Shown here: positions 3,363-12,550 of the stretch, piece after piece | Numbering within the stretch: the stretch's first letter is position 1 | Layout: every line of letters begins with the position of its first letter | The notes under the pieces: generated by a model | Database searches by the model: none | What the model was told of the DNA's origin: nothing | Seen by the model: the letters and a program-made list of their open reading frames with translations, nothing else | Program-made: the position numbers and the translations under genes | Source of the DNA: Methylotetracoccus sp. | Lineage (GTDB): Bacteria; Pseudomonadota; Gammaproteobacteria; Methylococcales; Methylococcaceae | Assembly (NCBI GenBank): GCA_025458755.1 | Contig: JALORT010000110.1 | Location: 1 to 12,550, forward strand | Direction of reading: 5' to 3' | Length of the DNA stretch: 12,550 nt

Positions 3363-5477
3363 ATGATTGTTCTCTGCTACTTCGGTCTCATCGCTGCACT
3401 GCTCTCCGGCGCCGTTTCTCTGGTGCTGATCGCCCCCGAATGGAGCCAGCGTGGGTTGGCCAGGCTTTCCGGCCACATCAGGCTGCAATCCTGGTCACTC
3501 CAGCTCACTCGGACCGATCCGAAGCGCTTCCATCGAGCGGTCGACTATGGGGCATTCGGCTTGCTCGGCTTATCGGGCGCGGCGGTGATCGCGTCAGGCC
3601 TCGGAGCCCTCCTCGCTGACAACGCGATGTTCGATCAACTTCCGCTGGGCCTCCCCTGGCTGCGGTGGCATATTCGCCTGGATGCGCTCTCCGGCTTCTT
3701 TCTGATGGTGATCGGCGTCGCGACGCTCGCGGTCAGCCTCTACGGGCCGGGCTATGTCCGCAGTTTTCGGCACGGCGGCTATTCCCTCGCGGCTTTGGGA
3801 TTTTGCACCGCCTGGTTCATTGCCGGCATGGAACTGGTCGTCATCAGCGACGATGCGTTCATGTTCATGGTCGCGTGGGAGCTGATGTCGGTTGCCAGCT
3901 ATTTCCTGGTTGCCTTTCAGCATGAGCATGCGGCGAACCGCCGCGCGTCGTTCCTGTACCTATTGATGGCGGTCGTCGGAGCGATCCACCTGATTCTGGC
4001 GTTCGGCGTCGTCGCCGCATTTGCGAACGGATTTACTTTCGATGCCTTGCGCGCCACCCATCTGTCCCCGCTGTGGGCCAGCATCGCCTTTGGACTCGCA
4101 CTGATCGGTTTCGGCATGAAGGCGGGTCTGGTGCCTCTGCACGCCTGGCTGCCGGAAGCTCACCCGGTCGCACCGTCACATATCTCCGCATTAATGAGCG
4201 GCGTGATGTTGAAGGTCGCCGTTTACGGGTTCATCCGCTTTGTTTTCGACATCCTCGGCGACGGCCATTGGGAATGGGGGGTCTGCACACTGGTGCTCGG
4301 AACGGCATCGGCCGCACTCGGGGCGATGTACGCGTTTCAACAGAACAACATCAAACGTCTGCTCGCCTACTCGTCGATCGAGAACATCGGCATCGTGTTC
4401 ATGGGACTGGGTTTGTCGATGATCTTCTTCGCCCAGGGCCACCGTGAGCTGGGCGTGATCGGGCTGATCGCGGCGCTGTACCATGTCGTCAATCACGCGG
4501 TCTTCAAGACTCTGCTGTTCCTGCAGGCAGGAACGGTCCTGCATCAGACCCACGAGGGCAACCTGGAGCAGCTGGGCGGGCTGGTCAAACGCTTGCCCCG
4601 GACATCGATCATCGTGTTGGTCGGCTGCGTGGCCATTTCCGGGTTGCCGCCGTTGAACGGTTTCGTGTCGGAATGGCTCACCTTTCAAACCGCATTGCAG
4701 GTGTCCGCTCTCGACAGCGGCATCCTCCGCAGCGTGATTCCAGTCGCCGCGGCACTGATGGCCTTGACCGGCGCGGTGACCGCGGCCGCGTTCGTCAAAG
4801 TTTACGGCGTCGGCTTCCTCGGCCAGCCGCGCAGCCGCCACGCGGCCCATGCCCGCGAAACCCGGCATCTCGGAATGATGGCCGGCCCCGCTTTTCTGGC
4901 CGCGCTGTGCGTGCTGTTGGGAGTGTTTCCGGGAGTGGTGATCGCGGCGCTCGGGCACGTCAGCGATGAACTCCTGGGCGAGACACTGGCCAGCGCCTAT
5001 GCCAACGGTTGGCTCTGGCTGACGCCGGTATCGCAGAACGTCGCTTCCTACTCCGCGCCCATCGTGTTCCTGGCCTGCGTGGCCGCAGCGTCGATCGGCT
5101 ATCGGCTGCTGACTTCGCCGAAGGCCGTCCCTGCCGTGCGAGTGCCGCGCTGGGACTGCGGCTTCGGTGGGCTCAGTGCCCGCATGCAGTACACCTCGAG
5201 CGCATTCAGTCAGCCGCTCCGCCGCGTATTCCACCCATTGTTCGAACTGCGAGAACAAACGGTCACGACGCCGCGCGGCCATCTGCTCGGCACCCCGGCC
5301 CGTCTGGATTTTCGCCTGGAGATTCAGGACCGTTCCTGGCGTCACCTCTACGAACCGCTGGTTCGCTGGATCGAAGCGGCAGCGCGCCAGATCGGCCGGA
5401 TCCAGACCGGGAACATCCGGACCTATATCGCTTATTCCTTCTTCACTCTGTTGGCGCTCTTGGCGGTGGTAAGTTGA
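3363..5477 (+). CDS. hyfB: HyfB-like proton-channel subunit of a hydrogenase-4-type complex
   Basis: A 704-residue polytopic membrane protein of the complex I NuoL/M/N and Mrp antiporter superfamily. Its residues match those thought to carry protons: Glu173 in FMVAWELMSVASY, Lys252 in GFGMKAGLVPLHAWLPEAHP, Lys283 in MSGVMLKVAVYG, the YSSIEN motif near 335-340, and Lys381 in YHVVNHAVFKTLLFLQAG. The C-terminal 110 residues, from VPRWDCGFGG to GRIQTGNIRTYIAYSF, form the extension typical of HyfB/HycC, ending in a last membrane helix. Length is close to the family value of about 670. It is the first gene of the operon. An in-frame TGA at 3330 and the absence of an alternative start fix the ATG at 3363, although no clear Shine-Dalgarno precedes it. 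The stop overlaps the hyfC start (TGATG). Expected role: coupling redox chemistry to ion translocation across the inner membrane. Confidence 0.93.
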   Translation: MIVLCYFGLIAALLSGAVSLVLIAPEWSQRGLARLSGHIRLQSWSLQLTRTDPKRFHRAVDYGAFGLLGLSGAAVIASGLGALLADNAMFDQLPLGLPWLRWHIRLDALSGFFLMVIGVATLAVSLYGPGYVRSFRHGGYSLAALGFCTAWFIAGMELVVISDDAFMFMVAWELMSVASYFLVAFQHEHAANRRASFLYLLMAVVGAIHLILAFGVVAAFANGFTFDALRATHLSPLWASIAFGLALIGFGMKAGLVPLHAWLPEAHPVAPSHISALMSGVMLKVAVYGFIRFVFDILGDGHWEWGVCTLVLGTASAALGAMYAFQQNNIKRLLAYSSIENIGIVFMGLGLSMIFFAQGHRELGVIGLIAALYHVVNHAVFKTLLFLQAGTVLHQTHEGNLEQLGGLVKRLPRTSIIVLVGCVAISGLPPLNGFVSEWLTFQTALQVSALDSGILRSVIPVAAALMALTGAVTAAAFVKVYGVGFLGQPRSRHAAHARETRHLGMMAGPAFLAALCVLLGVFPGVVIAALGHVSDELLGETLASAYANGWLWLTPVSQNVASYSAPIVFLACVAAASIGYRLLTSPKAVPAVRVPRWDCGFGGLSARMQYTSSAFSQPLRRVFHPLFELREQTVTTPRGHLLGTPARLDFRLEIQDRSWRHLYEPLVRWIEAAARQIGRIQTGNIRTYIAYSFFTLLALLAVVS

Positions 5478-6418
5478 TGGCCTGGTTGATTTCCTTTTTC
5501 GAAACGGCGCTATTCATCGCGCTGGCACCCCTTTTCTGCGGCTGGGTGAAGTGGGTGAAGTGCTTGCTGCAAAACCGGCGTCCACCTTCCGTGCTGCAGC
5601 CGTATCGCGATCTGATCAAGCTGTTCCGGAAGCGCCCGGTGATCGCCGCCGAGGCGTCCTGGGTATTCGAGGCCGCACCCTACGTCGTGTTCGTGACCGC
5701 CGTTTTCGCGGCCGGGATCGTACCGTTCGCGGCTCACCACTTGCCCACGGCGAAAGTCGCAGATCTGATCGTTCTGGTCGGCTTTTTTGCGCTGGGCCGC
5801 TTTTTCCTGACGCTGGCCGGCATGGATCTCGGGACCGCGTTCGGCGGGATGGGTTCGTCGCGCGAGATGATGATCGCATCGCTGGCCGAACCGGCCATGC
5901 TGATGGCGGTCTTCACGCTGGCCATCAGCGCTTCCACGACCAACCTGTCCGAGGCGATCCATTGGGTTCTGGAAACCGGACTGGTTCTGCGGCCCTCGTT
6001 CGTGTTCGCACTGGGCGGCCTGACCTTGGTCGCAATCGCAGAAACCGGGAGGATTCCGGTCGACAATCCGGCCACCCACCTCGAACTGACAATGGTGCAC
6101 GAAGCGATGATCCTGGAGTACAGCGGCAAGTATCTCGCGCTGCTGGAATGGGGCAGCCAGATCAAGCTCATGCTGTACGGTGTCTTGATCTCCAACATCT
6201 TCCTGCCGTGGGGTATCGCCGAAGATTTCGAGATAAGCCACCTCGGTTTCGGTCTTGCCGCGATCGTGGCCAAGCTGGCGGTGCTGGGCATCGCCCTGCC
6301 TACCGGCGAAACGCTGGTCGCCAAGATGCGCGTGTTCCGCTATCAGGAGTTCCTCGGCTTCGCCTACCTGTTGAGCCTGCTCGGGATGCTGAGCCACGTG
6401 ATCTTGGAGGTGAACTGA
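5477..6418 (+). CDS. hyfC: HyfC-like (NuoH-type) membrane anchor subunit
   Basis: 313 residues with about eight membrane helices; homologue of HyfC/HycD and complex I NuoH. This subunit joins the membrane arm to the peripheral iron-sulfur/large-subunit pair and lines the site where electron transfer meets ion pumping. Visible signatures are QPYRDLIKLFRK (41-52), the GGMGSSREMM loop (123-132), and AETGRIPVDNPATHLELTMV (188-207) followed by HEAMILEYSGKY (208-219), which is the conserved acidic loop of the family. The start at 5477 overlaps the hyfB stop by one base, indicating translational coupling. The frame is open upstream of that point, but the upstream part is only hyfB read in another frame. 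Length agrees with the family. Confidence 0.92.
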   Translation: MAWLISFFETALFIALAPLFCGWVKWVKCLLQNRRPPSVLQPYRDLIKLFRKRPVIAAEASWVFEAAPYVVFVTAVFAAGIVPFAAHHLPTAKVADLIVLVGFFALGRFFLTLAGMDLGTAFGGMGSSREMMIASLAEPAMLMAVFTLAISASTTNLSEAIHWVLETGLVLRPSFVFALGGLTLVAIAETGRIPVDNPATHLELTMVHEAMILEYSGKYLALLEWGSQIKLMLYGVLISNIFLPWGIAEDFEISHLGFGLAAIVAKLAVLGIALPTGETLVAKMRVFRYQEFLGFAYLLSLLGMLSHVILEVN

Positions 6419-6419
6419 C

Positions 6420-6962
6420 ATGGGTCTGATGCAGCAGACGATTTTCGAGCAGGCGGTGTTGTTCCTCGCTGCCTTGGTCGTATTCACCTCCTTCTTGATG
6501 CTGGCGCAGCGGCGGCTGTTCCCGCTGATCGGCCTGTTCGCCTGGCAGGGGCTGCTGCTCGCAGCAACGACAGCTCTGGTGGCCTACAACCGCGATTATT
6601 CTCACCTCTACATCTCCGCACTGATCACGTTGGCCATCAAAACCTTGGTCATTCCATGGATGCTGCGGCGCTGGATCATCCAGCTGGATGTGCACCGCGA
6701 GGTGGAATCGCTGCTGTACCCGTCCTACGTGATGACCGCTGCATCGTCCCTGGTGCTGTTTAGCTACTATGTGGTATTGCCGATCGAGCAGCTCTCGGCC
6801 CTGGCATCACGCAACGCGATCGCGGTCAGCTTGGCGGTGGTGCTGTTGGGGATGCTGCTGATGATCACCCGCCGGCAGGCGGTCACGCACGTGATCGGTT
6901 TCATGTCGATCGAAAACGGGCTGTTCTTCGCAGTATCGATTCGCTGGATGTGGACCAACTGA
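6420..6962 (+). CDS. hyfE: HyfE-like (NuoK-type) subunit with aberrant C-terminus
   Basis: 180 residues with five membrane helices; homologue of HyfE and related to NuoK/MrpC, a small ion-channel subunit of the membrane arm. Conserved features are AIKTLVIPW (Lys74), the QLDVHREVES loop (88-97), and VIGFMSIENGLFF (158-170), whose Glu-Asn pair is typical. HyfE proteins are normally about 215 residues and continue after ENG with one more membrane helix and a short LDV-type tail. Here the frame instead ends AVSIRWMWTN. The expected tail is present in another frame immediately downstream (6932-6991), so about 40 residues appear deleted out of frame. GGAGG at 6406-6410 gives a firm start, one base after the hyfC stop. 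The product probably lacks its last helix, so its function is doubtful unless this is an assembly error. Confidence 0.85.
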   Translation: MGLMQQTIFEQAVLFLAALVVFTSFLMLAQRRLFPLIGLFAWQGLLLAATTALVAYNRDYSHLYISALITLAIKTLVIPWMLRRWIIQLDVHREVESLLYPSYVMTAASSLVLFSYYVVLPIEQLSALASRNAIAVSLAVVLLGMLLMITRRQAVTHVIGFMSIENGLFFAVSIRWMWTN

Positions 6963-6991
6963 ACCGGCTCCACGAGGTGGAACCCTCATGA
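6929..6991 (+). pseudogene. hyfE: Out-of-frame remnant of the hyfE C-terminus
   Basis: In the +2 frame relative to hyfE, the DNA reads R-SIDSLDVDQLNRLHEVEPS and then TGA. This resembles the normal HyfE end, where a basic residue after the last helix is followed by a LDVxxL segment. The TGA (6989-6991) overlaps the hyfF ATG (6988-6990) as ATGA, the classic coupling between adjacent operon genes. This is strong evidence that the frame was once the true hyfE end. No start codon of its own is expected. Confidence 0.65.
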
Positions 6992-8448
6992 TCTCCCTGC
7001 TCCTTTGGGTTCCGCTGCTGGGCATGATCGCGCTGGCGGTGTTGGGCCATCGCATCAAAGCTGGCCGAATCAACGTCTATACCAACGGGGCCATGCTGGC
7101 GATCAGTCTGCTGCTGGCCTGGCAGGTCTGGCGGCGAGGCGCGTTGGAAAGCGCCAACGAGGTGCTGCGGGTTGACGCGTTCAATGTCTACCTGATCGTG
7201 CTGACGGCCTTTGTCGGTTTCACCACGTCCTTGTTCTCCTCGCCGTACATGGAGAATGAATTGCGTCATGGCCGCGTCACCGCCGGAAGCCTCCGGCTGT
7301 ATCACGCGATGTACCAGGGCTTCATGCTGGCGATGTTCCTGGTGCTCACCACCAACAACATGGGACTGATGTGGGTAGCGATGGAAGGAGCGACGCTGGC
7401 TACGGTCCTTTTGGTCGGCCTGTACCGTACGCCGGAATCGATCGAAGCGGCATGGAAGTATTTCATCCTTTGCGGTCTGGGCATCGCCCAGGCGCTGTTC
7501 GGAACCGTGTTGCTCTACTTCGCCGCGGAACAGCTGCCGCAAGCCGGCGAGCATGCGTTGACCTGGTCCTGGCTGTACCAGCATGCAGCCGAACTGAATC
7601 CGGACGTACTGACGCTGGCTTTTGTGTTCCTGCTGGTCGGCTACGGTACCAAGGCCGGCCTGGTGCCGCTGCACAACTGGCTGCCGGATGCCCATTCCGA
7701 AGGTCCGACGCCGATGTCGGCGATTCTTTCCGGGTTGCTGTTAAACGATGCGCTATACGCCATCGTACGGTGCAAGATGCTGGTCGACGGCGCGACGCAG
7801 GGACCTATCGCCGGACACATGATGATGGGCTTCGGCTTGCTGTCGTTCCTGGTCGCCGTGCTGTTCCTGCACCGGCAGCGGGACATCAAGCGGCTGTACA
7901 GTTATTCCTCGATCGAGCACATGGGCGCGATGACCTTCGCGTTCGGCGTCGGCGGCCCGCTGGCCACCTTCGCCGCGCTGCTGCACATGACCGTCCATTC
8001 GCTGACCAAATCCGCCATTTTCGTCACCGTCGGGCACGCCGCCCAAATCGCGAAAACACAGCAGATCGAGCACATCCGCGGCTTGATCCGCACCCAACCG
8101 GCGATCGGCTGGGGACTGCTGATCGGCACTCTGGCGATCGCGGGTTTTCCGCCGTTCGGCGTCTTCACCAGCGAATTTCTGCTGCTGCTGGCCACCATGC
8201 AAAGCTATCCGTGGTTGACCCCGCTGCTCCTGCTCGGCATCGGCATCGCCTTCGCCGGCCTGTTCCGGCATCTGCACCCGATGGTCTATGGACCTGCACC
8301 CGAGGGGCAGGTCGCGGTGAGTGCGAACCTGTGGCCAGTGTTCGCGCATCTCGCGCTGGTTCTCTGGCTGGGGCTCGCGATTCCCTCGGGGCTGTCGGAT
8401 TGGTTCAACCAAGCCACGGCGCTGATCGCCGGCAGTGCTCCGTTGTGA
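6988..8448 (+). CDS. hyfF: HyfF-like proton-channel subunit
   Basis: 486 residues, about 13-14 membrane helices; second antiporter-type subunit of the complex, related to HyfF, NuoM/N and MrpD. It carries the superfamily charge pattern: Glu133 in MWVAMEGATLATV, Lys222 in VGYGTKAGLVPLHNWLPDAH, YSYSSIEHMG (305-313) and Lys341 in TVHSLTKSAIF. In the helix after the Lys222 motif it has Asn253 (SGLLLNDALY) where HyfB has Lys. Length is near the family value of about 500-520. GAGG at 6974-6977 is 10 bases upstream. The ATG overlaps the stop of the ancestral, now out-of-frame, hyfE tail. Reinitiation after the present hyfE stop at 6962 would have to bridge 25 bases. Confidence 0.92.
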   Translation: MISLLLWVPLLGMIALAVLGHRIKAGRINVYTNGAMLAISLLLAWQVWRRGALESANEVLRVDAFNVYLIVLTAFVGFTTSLFSSPYMENELRHGRVTAGSLRLYHAMYQGFMLAMFLVLTTNNMGLMWVAMEGATLATVLLVGLYRTPESIEAAWKYFILCGLGIAQALFGTVLLYFAAEQLPQAGEHALTWSWLYQHAAELNPDVLTLAFVFLLVGYGTKAGLVPLHNWLPDAHSEGPTPMSAILSGLLLNDALYAIVRCKMLVDGATQGPIAGHMMMGFGLLSFLVAVLFLHRQRDIKRLYSYSSIEHMGAMTFAFGVGGPLATFAALLHMTVHSLTKSAIFVTVGHAAQIAKTQQIEHIRGLIRTQPAIGWGLLIGTLAIAGFPPFGVFTSEFLLLLATMQSYPWLTPLLLLGIGIAFAGLFRHLHPMVYGPAPEGQVAVSANLWPVFAHLALVLWLGLAIPSGLSDWFNQATALIAGSAPL

Positions 8449-8498
8449 GTGCTGCCGGCGCCCCCCGAGACCTGGAAACACGCCGTTTACTGCACGCC

Positions 8499-8508: not shown

Positions 8509-10125
8509 ATGATGGATAGTAGGGCACCGCTCAGTGATCTGCACAGCGCCTGGATCACGGACCTCCGGCAAACGCTGGCCGCGCAGGGCGTCGAAAGCCA
8601 GGATCTGACCGGAATGACTTTGTTGCCGGCCGCGGTGTGGCAGGTCAAGCCCGATGATTGGGGTCTGATCGCGCGCGAGGCCCAGCTCGTACAATGCCGC
8701 TGGGCCGGTTTGTGGCTAGACGATCTGGGCGGTCAGGGTTTCCGGGCGAACGTCGCTTTGGTGAAGCATGGCGGCTTTCTAGTCGTCCGGACTGAGTTGG
8801 AGGCATCGACACTGAAGCTCGCATCGCATGCCCGGTATTTCCCGGCCGCGGATCGGGTGGAACGGCATGCGGCCGACCTTTATGGCGTTCGCTTCGAAGG
8901 TCATCCGGACCCGCGGCGCTGGGTCCGGCACCAGGCGTGGCCGGAGGATCAGTATCCGTTGCGCAAAACGTTTCCTGCCGCAGGGAGGCCGGAGGACCGG
9001 ACGCGCCCTGATTCCGAATATCCCTTCCTCGGGAGCGCGGCACCCGAGGTCTACGAGATCCCGGTGGGCCCGGTCCATGCTGGAATCATCGAACCGGGGC
9101 ATTTCCGTTTTCTGGCAGTCGGCGAAACGGTGTTGAATCTGGAGGAACGGCTGGGCTACGTGCACAAAGGCATCGAGAAGATCGCCGAAGGCCGCGATGC
9201 GGACGGTCTGGCACGGTTGGCGGGTCGGGTGTCCGGTGATTCCACCGTCGCGCATGCCTGGGCGGCCTGCATGGCAATGGAACGCGCCTACGCGCTGGTC
9301 ATCCCCAGTCGCGGATACCGACTTCGTGGCATCCTGGCCGAACGCGAGCGGATCGGGAACCATCTCGGTGACATCGGCGCGATCTGCAACGACGTGGGAT
9401 TCCCATTCGCCAACTATCAATTGACCCGGCTGCGTGAAGGCTGGCTGCGCGACAATGCAGCCTGGTTCGGACACCGCTTGCTGATGGACCGAATCGTTCC
9501 CGGCGGCGTCGCGACCGACCTCAGGAACGAACATGTGGAGCCGATGCGGCGCCGGCTTTCAGAACTCGCAACCGAACTCGATGAACTGCGCCCGATACTC
9601 GACACCAACCATTCATTGCAGGATCGACTGGTCGGCGCGGGGATGCTGAGCCTAGAGGACGCCACGAGCTTGGGCTGTCTGGGCTATGTGGGCCGTGGCA
9701 GCGGCTTCGACTGTGATCTTCGCCGGGACCGGCCGTACGCGCCTTACGACGAGCTGGAGGTCGATGCGGCCTCACGGCGGGAAGGCGATGTCGCGGCCCG
9801 GCTGAATGTCCGCTTCGACGAGATCGGTGCATCGCTGAAAGTGCTGGACCAATTGCTGACCAAGCTGGATTCGGGGCCGATCCGAAACCCGTGGCCGGGA
9901 GAGGCCCGCGTCTCGGAGGGACTGGGCGTTGTCGAGGGTTGGCGGGGAGAAATCCTCGCATACGTTCGTTTCGACGGCCGCGGCCTGGTCGCCCGGTACT
10001 ATCCGCGCGATCCCAGCGTGTTCAATTGGCCCGCGCTGGAACAGCTGATCCACGGCAACATCGTCCCGGACTTTCCGATGTGCAACAAGTCGGTGAACGG
10101 CTCGTATGCCGGTCACGACCTTTGA
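8509..10125 (+). CDS. hyfG: HyfG-like large subunit lacking [NiFe] ligands (Ehr type)
   Basis: 538 residues: a NuoC-like N-terminal domain (about 35-155, with ERHAADLYGVRFEGHPDPRR) fused to a NuoD/[NiFe]-large-subunit-like domain (about 180-538). The fold markers EIPVGPVHAGIIEPGHFRF (183-201) and GYVHKGIEKIAEGRD (216-230) are intact. In true group 4 hydrogenases the next segment is RxCGxC; here residues 240-245 read RVSGDS, with both cysteines replaced by Ser. The C-terminal motif, normally DPCxxC, is DFPMCNKSVN (521-530), leaving one cysteine. No [NiFe] centre can form by the known chemistry, and no post-ligand protease cleavage tail is evident. The protein fits energy-converting-hydrogenase-related (Ehr) complexes, whose electron partner is unsettled. 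It stands directly before hyfI, its expected partner. Confidence 0.92.
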   Translation: MMDSRAPLSDLHSAWITDLRQTLAAQGVESQDLTGMTLLPAAVWQVKPDDWGLIAREAQLVQCRWAGLWLDDLGGQGFRANVALVKHGGFLVVRTELEASTLKLASHARYFPAADRVERHAADLYGVRFEGHPDPRRWVRHQAWPEDQYPLRKTFPAAGRPEDRTRPDSEYPFLGSAAPEVYEIPVGPVHAGIIEPGHFRFLAVGETVLNLEERLGYVHKGIEKIAEGRDADGLARLAGRVSGDSTVAHAWAACMAMERAYALVIPSRGYRLRGILAERERIGNHLGDIGAICNDVGFPFANYQLTRLREGWLRDNAAWFGHRLLMDRIVPGGVATDLRNEHVEPMRRRLSELATELDELRPILDTNHSLQDRLVGAGMLSLEDATSLGCLGYVGRGSGFDCDLRRDRPYAPYDELEVDAASRREGDVAARLNVRFDEIGASLKVLDQLLTKLDSGPIRNPWPGEARVSEGLGVVEGWRGEILAYVRFDGRGLVARYYPRDPSVFNWPALEQLIHGNIVPDFPMCNKSVNGSYAGHDL

Positions 10126-10137
10126 GATCCAACAGCC

Positions 10138-10653
10138 ATGATAGCGACCCTGAGCAAGATTGCCCGTGTCGGGGTGATCACCGAGCCGGCTCGTCCGAGC
10201 AGCGATGCGGAACTGGAAAAGGTCGGCACCGAGATCCGCGGCGTGATCGACCGCAGATTCAGGGGCAGCCTGGCGATTCGCCAGGTGGATGCCGGTTCCT
10301 GCAACGGCTGCGAGCTGGAAATTCATGCCCTGAACAATGCCTTTTATGACATCGAGCGCTTCGGCATCCACTTCGTGGCATCCCCGCGCCATGCCGACAT
10401 TCTGTTGGTGACGGGACCCGTCTCGCGCCACATGCAGCACGCATTGCTGACCACTTATCAGTCGACGCCGGATCCGAAATGGGTGATCGCGGTGGGCACC
10501 TGCGCCGCGGACGGCGGCGAGTTCGGCGTGTCCTATGCCAGTTGCGGGGCGGTCAGCAACGTGGTGCCAGTCGATGCCGTGATCCCCGGCTGTCCGCCGA
10601 AGCCGCTGCATCTGCTTGAAGGAATTATGTCTCTGATCAGCCGGAGTGTTTAA
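10138..10653 (+). CDS. hyfI: HyfI-like (NuoB-type) [4Fe-4S] small subunit
   Basis: 171 residues; homologue of HyfI/HycG and NuoB, the small subunit that binds one [4Fe-4S] cluster next to the large subunit. The four expected ligands are present: Cys55 and Cys58 in AGSCNGCELEI, Cys122 in VGTCAADGG, and Cys152 in IPGCPPKP. The segment YDIERFGIHFVASPRHADIL (70-89) is also characteristic. So the proximal cluster is kept although the neighbouring HyfG has lost its metal site. The gene follows hyfG by 12 bases without a strong ribosome site, suggesting coupling. It is the last gene of the operon. A separate ferredoxin-like subunit (HyfH/NuoI type), which usually neighbours this gene in hydrogenase-4 operons, is absent. 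Confidence 0.93.
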   Translation: MIATLSKIARVGVITEPARPSSDAELEKVGTEIRGVIDRRFRGSLAIRQVDAGSCNGCELEIHALNNAFYDIERFGIHFVASPRHADILLVTGPVSRHMQHALLTTYQSTPDPKWVIAVGTCAADGGEFGVSYASCGAVSNVVPVDAVIPGCPPKPLHLLEGIMSLISRSV

Positions 10654-11094: not shown

Positions 11095-12550
11095 ATGGCT
11101 GATCAGAGATCCACCAAAACGCCGTTTCGTCAGAGCCAGTGGAACCGAGGTGTTCAACGTTTGCGCGCGGATGAAAGCACCGGCTGGCGGCGGGTTGGCC
11201 TGATCGCGCTGACCGCGGCTGTCTATTTCGCCACCGCTCGTGTTGGGCTCGAGTATGCGGTGGTCGCCGGCGTTGTCACACTGACTTGGCTCCCGAGTGG
11301 CTTGGCGCTGGCATTCTTACTCACACTGGGAACCGGCGTTTGGCCCGGTATCGCGGCGGGAGCTTTTCTGGTCAACGCATCGATCGGCATTCCGCTTCCC
11401 GTCGTCGCTGGAATAAGTAACTGCTGGGAACACACTCGAGGCAGTCACCGCGGCTGCCCTTTTCACCTCGTCAGCGAAACCCAACGCGTCGCTCCGGAAT
11501 GTTCGAGGTGTAGTGGCGCTTGTCGGTGCCACAGCCATCAGCGCGATGATCAGCGCTTCAGCAGGCGTGGTCAGTCTGACGTTGGGCGGTGTCGTTCCCT
11601 CCGACAATGGTCTGTGGGCTTGGCTGATATGGTGGATGGGAGACACGACGGGCATCCTGATTGGGACCCCGCTGCTGATGTGTTTGCCGCAAAGGCACCG
11701 TGCGATGCGGCTCTCCCGGATCCTGGTTTTTGAGGCGATAACGCTCGTAGGCTTCCTCGGAATAGCGACCTGGATCGTTTTTCGCGTCTCCGAATTCAGC
11801 AATGCCGGTCACTATCCAACTGCATTTGCTGTCTATCCCTTCGTGATCTGGGGAGCGTTGCGTTTCGGGGTGCCGGGGGCCGGGACCATCACGTTGATCA
11901 TCGCCTTCGCATCGATGCTGACCACGACGCATGAAGCAGGGCCATTCGTCGTCAGTCTCCCGACCTACAGCCTGATTCGCTGGTGGATTTTCAACACCAT
12001 TGTGGCCACGAGCGGGCTGCTGTTGGGTGCTTCAAGCGAAGAGCGGCGCGCCGCTCAAGGAGCCCTCGTCCGCGCGAAGGAGGAACTCGAACACCGGGTC
12101 GAAAAACGAACCCGCGCGCTGACCATGACCAATCGCCATTTGCGAGAGCAAATTGCTCTAAGCCAGCGTCTGGAGAACGAAGTCATCCATGTCAGCGAGG
12201 GAAAACAGCGAAAAATCGGTCAAGAGTTACACGATGGCTTGGGCCAACATCTCACCGGCCTCGCCTACCTGAGTAAGGCGCTGGCCGAGGAACTGAGACC
12301 AAGGATCCCCGATTTGGCCAGTGCGGCTCAGCAGATCGCCGAGCGCGTCAATGAATCCATTGCGATGACTCGAGCAATTGCCAGGGGCTTATACCCCGTC
12401 TCACTCGAGTCAGGTGGCCTGGCTGGTGGCTTGAAACAGCTGGCCAGCCAGGCGCGTGAACGGCACGGGATCGACTGTCGGTATCTCCGGGAGGTGGACG
12501 TCGAGATCCCCGACGGTCTTTGCGCCATCAACCTGTTTCGTATCGCTCAG
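11095..12550 (+). pseudogene. MASE1 sensor histidine kinase (HisKA_3/NarX type), frameshifted, runs off window
   Basis: The first frame (from 11095) gives a MASE1 membrane sensor start: TAAVYFATARVGLEYAVVAG, then LTWLPSGLALAFLLTLGTGV and WPGIAAGAFLVN. It degenerates after VVAGIS near 11415. The MASE1 sequence resumes one base later in the next frame as GNTLEAVTAAALF, which is then open without a stop to 12550. That frame encodes the remaining MASE1 helices (WLIWWMGDTTGILIGTPLL, FVIWGALRFGVPGAGT), a coiled-coil linker (about 12060-12200) and a HisKA_3 dimerisation domain, QELHDGLGQHLTGLAYL, with the phospho-acceptor His at 12230-12232. The window ends at the start of the ATPase domain (NLFRIAQ). 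Removing one A at 11415-11416 would restore a single frame. Expected role: membrane-bound sensing and phosphotransfer to a NarL-type regulator. Either a true pseudogene or a sequencing error. Confidence 0.8.

Follow-up and report, generated by a model that had tools for sequence, protein, structure and literature searches.

Relatives of the group 4 [NiFe] hydrogenases that lack the metal ligands have been described under the name Ehr. Passages of the literature report such complexes in comammox Nitrospira, where the CxxC is missing and the function is called unknown (PMC10284858), in about half of the Nitrospirales genomes (PMC12342949), and in other bacteria, for which a link with formate dehydrogenase was proposed (PMC6349859). 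According to the accessible part of one report, Ehr expression in N. moscoviensis is not raised by H2 (PMC12342949). Excerpts on Acidithiobacillus ferrooxidans state that its hyfBCEFGI genes were judged non-hydrogenase with HydDB and went undetected during growth on H2 (PMC7735108). Elsewhere, such clusters were read as formate hydrogenlyase, as far as the available sections go: the Nitrospira hyfBCEFGI set, which adjoins a CO dehydrogenase in one genome (PMC5596200), and the hyfBCEFG cluster of Acidithiobacillus caldus, which adjoins a beta-carbonic anhydrase (PMC3826726). Two further papers, also available in part, belong to this literature (PMC10974252; PMC3578206). Ehr is common, being found in 34 of 274 genomes of a class sample and, by similarity alone, in 62 of 398 genomes of a phylum sample.

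The window, i.e., the whole stretch of 12,550 nucleotides of Methylotetracoccus sp. that was analysed, carries six co-directional genes between positions 3363 and 10653, in the order hyfB-hyfC-hyfE-hyfF-hyfG-hyfI (Table 1). Antiporter-like, NuoH-like, NuoB-like and NuoCD-like subunits, which make up the Ehr gene set, are all encoded in the operon. HyfG is numbered from an ATG at 8509, a start chosen by the analyst; a GTG at 8449 is the longer alternative. The sequence-only reading had set its feature at 9226 to 10125, and these coordinates are right, the first being the first base of codon R240 and the second the end of the stop codon. Among profiles, HyfG scores best with Complex1_49kDa (140.6 bits), and the NiFe hydrogenase model gives 28.7 against a cut-off of 25.8. 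Both hyfB and hyfF pass the NCBIfam "hydrogenase 4" cut-offs, so automatic annotation would name the complex a hydrogenase, a danger of which the same reading had rightly warned. No match to hyfA, hyfH or hycI was found in the window with phmmer. Outside the operon, the window holds a small metal-binding protein of the SMBP family (PF16785; 266-598, minus strand) and a MASE1 histidine kinase split over the overlapping frames 11095-11733 and 11513-12550, with its N-terminal part in one frame and the remainder in the other, owing to a frameshift or an assembly error.

Table 1 Features of the Ehr operon in the window, and SulP-linked loci of the neighbour survey
Feature	Position	Strand	Details
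hyfB-like antiporter subunit	3363..5477	+	704 aa; PF00361, NCBIfam hydrogenase 4 subunit B above cut-off
hyfC-like (NuoH-like) subunit	5477..6418	+	313 aa; PF00146; TMH5-6 loop DNPATHLELTMVHE
hyfE-like subunit, broken	6420..6962	+	NCBIfam hydrogenase 4 membrane subunit, below cut-off
hyfF-like antiporter subunit	6988..8448	+	486 aa; PF00361, NCBIfam hydrogenase 4 subunit F above cut-off
hyfG / Ehr large subunit (NuoC-NuoD fusion)	8509..10125	+	538 aa; PF00329, PF00346, PF00374
Former first ligand motif RVSGDS	9226..9243	+	S242 and S245 in place of both Cys
Former second ligand motif NGSYAG, with HDL and stop codon	10096..10125	+	both Cys lost
hyfI (NuoB-like small subunit)	10138..10653	+	171 aa; PF01058; cluster Cys C55, C58, C122, C152
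SulP-linked loci (1)			L054, L066, L077, L079, L081, L082, L083, L085, L090
SulP-linked loci (2)			L096, L100, L101, L102, L116, L133, L138, L141

The main feature of the locus is the loss of all four [NiFe] ligands. HyfG reads RVSGDS where E. coli HycE has RVCGIC (phmmer against PDB 7z0s_E, 210.7 bits), and S242 and S245 face HycE C241 and C244 in both the phmmer and the MAFFT alignment, in agreement with what had been read from the sequence. The second motif is NGSYAG. It pairs with HycE DPCYSC, so that C531 falls on Ser532 and C534 on Gly535; the printed phmmer alignment ends after YA, and the MAFFT alignment of 127 proteins continues through the motif, giving S/S/S/G in HyfG for C241/C244/C531/C534. 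One surviving ligand Cys had been assigned to DFPMCNKS. This was mistaken, as C525 faces an Ile of HycE, in a column where 78 of the 127 rows have C and 42 have I. The error only strengthens the earlier conclusion that the [NiFe] site is lost: an alignment with four Cys at these positions would speak against it, and the 127-protein alignment shows 0/4 there in HyfG.

The doubt whether codons 242 and 245 hold a sequence error was settled with the 117 Ehr rows, i.e., the 127 minus three E. coli proteins, six from L049-L053 and one four-Cys row (L135). At the ligand positions, SSSG is found in 70 of these rows and STSG in 26. No Cys is left in 110 rows (one of them cut before the last two ligand positions), one Cys in seven, and two or more in none. 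As the loss recurs throughout the family, it is no sequencing error. After removal of rows at least 98% identical, 108 of 115 have no Cys and seven have one; the same contigs had been sampled twice in L069/L095 and L073/L092. The second hyfG copy of the host genome keeps one Cys, at the second ligand position. D244, flanked in the first motif by the positions of the two missing Cys, is invariant (Asp in 117/117 Ehr rows), and 25 of the 62 columns conserved to at least 99% lie within the site segments 186-201, 240-246 and 519-538, which were picked by hand and comprise 43 of 538 columns. Judging from this conservation, the metal site is remodelled, not decayed, and the pocket is under constraint. 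Hydrogen is almost certainly neither produced nor consumed by the complex. N526 and K527 were considered as marks of [NiFe] loss and rejected, both being present in the four-Cys protein of L135's genome.

The placement in the Ehr group, suggested by the sequence-only reading, agrees with a quick tree of 116 rows, which lacks author-labelled Ehr sequences, contains a long NuoCD branch and carries no claim on deep order. In this tree, 106 Ehr rows, including Nitrospirae and proteobacterial relatives, form one clade (SH-aLRT 100), from which E. coli HycE and HyfG, the L135 four-Cys protein and a six-row clade from L049-L053 are excluded. The window HyfG pairs with that of G136, a genome of the same family. 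The operon belongs with the Ehr complexes already published, whose missing CxxC is in print. Two other lineages were noted. The large subunit at L135 1773-3551 has four Cys and no tail (...CYSCTDR). It is the closest four-Cys relative among those examined, and its genome also has Ehr and an Ehr-type HyfC loop (L160). The L049-L053 proteins form a second clade without the four Cys, with ends SNAECDR, SVAENDR, SIAGADR or TVAGCDR and HyfC loop variants of their own.

The C-terminus and the maturation genes were considered as well. HycE has 35 residues beyond its last Cys and is presumably cleaved by HycI after R537, whose numbering was checked against the sequence; HyfG ends at this very cut point. 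In 124 of the 127 rows, the protein ends three residues past the last ligand column, at the place of R537; these include NuoCD, the six L049-L053 rows, the four-Cys row and 116 of the 117 Ehr rows. The remaining rows are the two E. coli hydrogenases, with their 35 residues, and one row cut short. Since the four-Cys protein of L135's genome is also tail-less, a missing tail alone is no proof of a lost site. HypD was sought in the even class sample of 274 genomes. Thirty-five match HyfG at 1e-40, and 34 were kept as Ehr genomes after G148, with a 35% relative only, was dropped. HypD is present in 16 of the 34 and missing from 18. Of the latter, 17 are at least 90% complete (one with 7% contamination), and the 18th is the host, at 72%. 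By the known route, those hosts are unable to build an Fe(CN)2CO centre; Ehr is kept nonetheless. HypD and Ehr are not associated in either direction (16/34 vs 92/240, p 0.35).

Neighbouring genes were surveyed in 121 sequences, i.e., 40 class-sample loci, the best 80 of at least 580 relatives, and the window. With phmmer, none of these 121 (80 being the best of at least 580) contained HycI or NuoE/F/G, a HyfA-like protein was found in L141 and L050 only, and a ferredoxin-type relay (HyfH/HycF/NuoI-like) in L050, L052 and L135 only.

In contrast to the [NiFe] ligands, the residues of electron and ion transfer are retained. The four cluster Cys of HyfI are present in 111/111 sequences at each position. 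At the proton-path positions, which we take to be those of the E. coli proteins, E173, K253 and E437 of HyfB are conserved in 95/95 and K284 in 93/95, and E133, K222 and E396 of HyfF in 109/109 each; N253 of HyfF replaces the NuoM Lys in 108/109, and E. coli HyfF has the same replacement. In HyfC, the loop DNPxTHLELTMxHE hardly varies, with H197, E199, H204 and E205 in 99/99 each. Where E. coli NuoH, HycD and HyfC have E-x-E-x-E, this loop mostly reads A/S/T-x-H-x-E and also contains three inserted residues and a further His. As a covarying second site this loop was rejected, because the L160 HyfC, upstream of the four-Cys subunit, has the same one.

An AlphaFold2 model of HyfG from 55 sequences (pLDDT 89.8, pTM 0.92) has its best Foldseek match in the PDB with 7z0s_E (TM 0.90), and complex I NuoCD reaches up to 0.87. 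Definition is poor at two places of the old active site, loop 189-193 and the five C-terminal residues. Ile194, which is I in 100% (rounded) of the 117 rows, aligns with the quinone-site His of NuoCD in the beta1-beta2 loop, which we take to be His38 of Thermus. This gives no support to a quinone site of the usual type. Complex I is matched at Tyr217 and Asp295, but neither residue discriminates, since Tyr217 is also found in HycE and Asp295 in Mbh.

With the proton-channel residues and the four [4Fe-4S] Cys intact, a redox-driven ion pump is the best reading. Ehr, a non-hydrogenase of the complex I/group 4 superfamily, probably pumps ions with the help of a small-molecule partner. A soluble reduced carrier would hand electrons to the single [4Fe-4S] cluster of HyfI, and a small molecule, be it a quinone or another polar substrate, might accept them in the Cys-free pocket of HyfG, or the electrons might run in reverse. 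The resulting change would drive H+ or Na+ through HyfC, HyfF and HyfB. Such a complex would work as complex I does, on another substrate and without the NADH arm.

The rival that survives best, itself unlikely, holds that Ehr is a transport module, instead of or besides a redox enzyme, which together with SulP would drive or exchange an anion, most plausibly bicarbonate. It draws by analogy on the DAB complex, presumably with a NuoL-like part, and on the NDH-1 CO2-uptake complexes, both of which use complex I parts. The recurrent neighbours of Ehr are a small XRE-type regulator, SulP and a spermidine-synthase-like gene. SulP neighbours the Ehr genes in 17 of the 121 sequences (80 of them the best of at least 580), and in 12 of these 17 it is on the same strand without an intervening ORF, according to the analyst's gene calls. 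It is on the opposite strand in L100 and L141, is separated by one ORF in L085, L100 and L138, and occupies a frame between hyfF and hyfG in L101. The host's second Ehr copy (L054, contig C187, 2-4065) reads SulP-hyfG-hyfI, followed by a spermidine-synthase-like gene, and its SulP ends 16 bases before hyfG. Against the reading, nine of the 17 loci belong to Methylococcales, SulP is not in the window, and it adjoins Ehr in only three of the 93 Ehr genomes of the even samples (34 of the class and 59 of the phylum sample), namely the host G000 (second copy), G177 and G449. A rough chance estimate gives 0.12 expected against these three (Poisson 0.0003), with a guessed two or so SulP per 3000 genes and relatedness ignored.

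The Ehr-linked SulPs fall into three groups, 20-35% identical to each other. Subfamily A comprises 13 proteins in the tree, all from Ehr loci, as a 100/100 clade whose nearest outsider, on a long branch, is another host SulP. In the tree, the other two groups do not separate from SulPs that stand alone, and the one tested, L116, has a plant sulfate transporter as by far its closest match; both points speak against the transport reading. In the reverse search, the L079 SulP (subfamily A) matched 36 of 398 genomes, and identity of at least 50% was reached at five loci only, in G000, G449 and G454, all Ehr-bearing (as are 62 of the 398 by similarity). Three of the five abut Ehr or a hyfB-like gene on the same strand (G000 C187, G449 C2, G454 C135); G000 C375 is a contig-edge fragment, and G449 C6 stands alone. 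At L187 (G454 C135, 2765-6343), the subfamily A SulP is followed by a same-strand hyfB-like gene cut by the contig end.

The statement that subfamily A has no stand-alone SulP (tree: 23 rows, 20 loci, mostly higher-scoring PF00916) was refuted by G136. This Ehr-bearing family mate of the host has a subfamily A SulP, 67% identical, flanked by about 7 kb free of Ehr genes; it emerged from a check of 20 further PF00916 places, of which the other 19 share no more than 39% identity with members of subfamily A. Because of this stand-alone member, the anion-transport reading was rated lower. Among the genomes examined, subfamily A occurs in those that bear Ehr, though not always next to the Ehr genes. 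Small XRE regulators can accompany SulP genes. An XRE-type gene was detected by HMM, anywhere in the stretch, in 26 of the 121 sequences (80 being the best of at least 580). It is missing from the 20 stand-alone SulP loci and hence gives no independent SulP-Ehr link. In many loci, a small XRE-type HTH gene is found upstream of hyfB (e.g., L041 3583-3876) and is a likely Ehr regulator.

As for the anion, the best solved relative of the L079 SulP is 6ki1 (88 bits vs 74 for the next), labelled low affinity sulfate transporter and taken here to be BicA. The host SulP that is the nearest outsider to subfamily A lies in a one-strand run of carbonic anhydrase, molybdopterin formate dehydrogenase, SulP and PEP carboxylase (L182, G000 C103, 4959-13619), which suits a transport role; among solved structures, this SulP matches 5da0 best, at 84.6 bits, with 6ki1 at 68.9. 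The beta-carbonic anhydrase beside the A. caldus hyf cluster, described in the accessible part of its source, fits as well (PMC3826726). On the other hand, phmmer with Can and CynT as queries found no E. coli-type beta-carbonic anhydrase in the 121 sequences (80 the best of at least 580), and RuBisCO is no commoner in Ehr genomes (19/34 vs 122/240). Bicarbonate is a lead, not a result. The available portions of two papers on SulP and inorganic carbon do not contain the term hyf (PMC10880623; PMC6458275), and no publication on a SulP-Ehr link was found among the matches listed, a search covering few subscription papers and preprints. SulP beside Ehr is one new clue, and it provides a concrete first test for the question of Ehr's role. 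The fuller proposal, in which Ehr and the SulP subfamily form an energised anion uptake system, probably for bicarbonate, with the hydrogen site turned into a substrate pocket, is more doubtful still. If true, it would add a third complex-I-derived kind of carbon acquisition to NDH-1 CO2 uptake and DAB.

A formate-linked reading appears improbable. It states that a formate dehydrogenase feeds HyfI and that the complex pumps ions while reducing quinone, as proposed in the consulted part of PMC6349859. Formate dehydrogenase (TIGR01591, above cut-off) is indeed present in 15 of the 34 Ehr genomes compared with 56 of 240 others (Fisher p 0.02, relatedness ignored), the host among its carriers. Nevertheless, 19 of the 34 have none above the cut-off, an fdhF-like gene is found in only one of the 121 sequences, L141 (80 the best of at least 580), and the operon has no ferredoxin-type relay subunit.

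The idea that the window operon is decaying and that its function falls to the second copy, on contig C187, is about as improbable. The hyfE gene (window 6900-6990) has an out-of-frame internal deletion of roughly 107 bases, according to an alignment with six relatives and a frame check; its last membrane segment of about 36 aa, kept by all six, is missing. Because of the broken hyfE, this copy may not assemble. The host genome does hold a second hyfG-hyfI pair, whose hyfG pairs with Methylocaldum in the tree. However, the other five frames are open and near the medians of their relatives (704/673, 313/324, 486/487, 538/532 and 171/174), and in an assembly of 521 contigs that is 72% complete, a small assembly error is as likely. 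The deletion may be real or such an error. In either case, the state of the window copy says nothing about the family. In the same host genome, a search for AMO gave no match; as the controls were also blank, methanotrophy is not shown either way.

That the complex is still a true hydrogenase, in which Ser or other residues serve as ligands, can practically be dismissed: the fold and the nearby Glu195 and His198 are as in HycE, but all four thiolates and the processing peptide are missing from HyfG and 18 of the 34 host genomes have no HypD.

The redox-driven ion pump without hydrogen chemistry remains the preferred reading of Ehr. With no ligand, no processing tail and about half of the hosts devoid of HypD, hydrogen metabolism by Ehr should be dropped from genome models, including those of clusters read as formate hydrogenlyase in the available passages of earlier work (PMC5596200; PMC3826726).

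Compared with complex I (NuoCD, NuoB, NuoH, NuoL/M), the fold and the channel residues are alike, and both are without [NiFe]. In contrast, NuoE/F/G/I are absent from the window, the quinone His is Ile194 in HyfG, and the HyfC loop differs from NuoH by H197, H204 and the three-residue insertion. E. coli formate hydrogenlyase and hydrogenase 4 have in common with the operon the fold (TM 0.90), the NuoC-NuoD fusion and the antiporter- and NuoH-like subunits. However, HycE and HyfG of E. coli have four Cys and 35 residues after the last one, and the window HyfG has neither; the FeS subunits of the HyfH/HycF and HyfA type are missing from the window, and hyf has three antiporter-type genes (hyfB, hyfD, hyfF), whereas the window has two. 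With group 4 [NiFe] hydrogenases in general, HyfI has the proximal [4Fe-4S] ligands in common, and HyfG lacks the four Ni-Fe Cys. The DAB or DIC-accumulating complexes are, in the part of the source available, likewise membrane complexes tied to inorganic carbon (PMC13144422), whereas the link of Ehr to carbon comes from the SulP neighbours only. The closest system is the published Ehr itself. Both are group 4 relatives without [NiFe] ligands, and no essential difference was seen from the accessible passages of these reports (PMC10284858; PMC12342949; PMC6349859); the host genome stands apart in having two copies, one of them directly behind a SulP gene.
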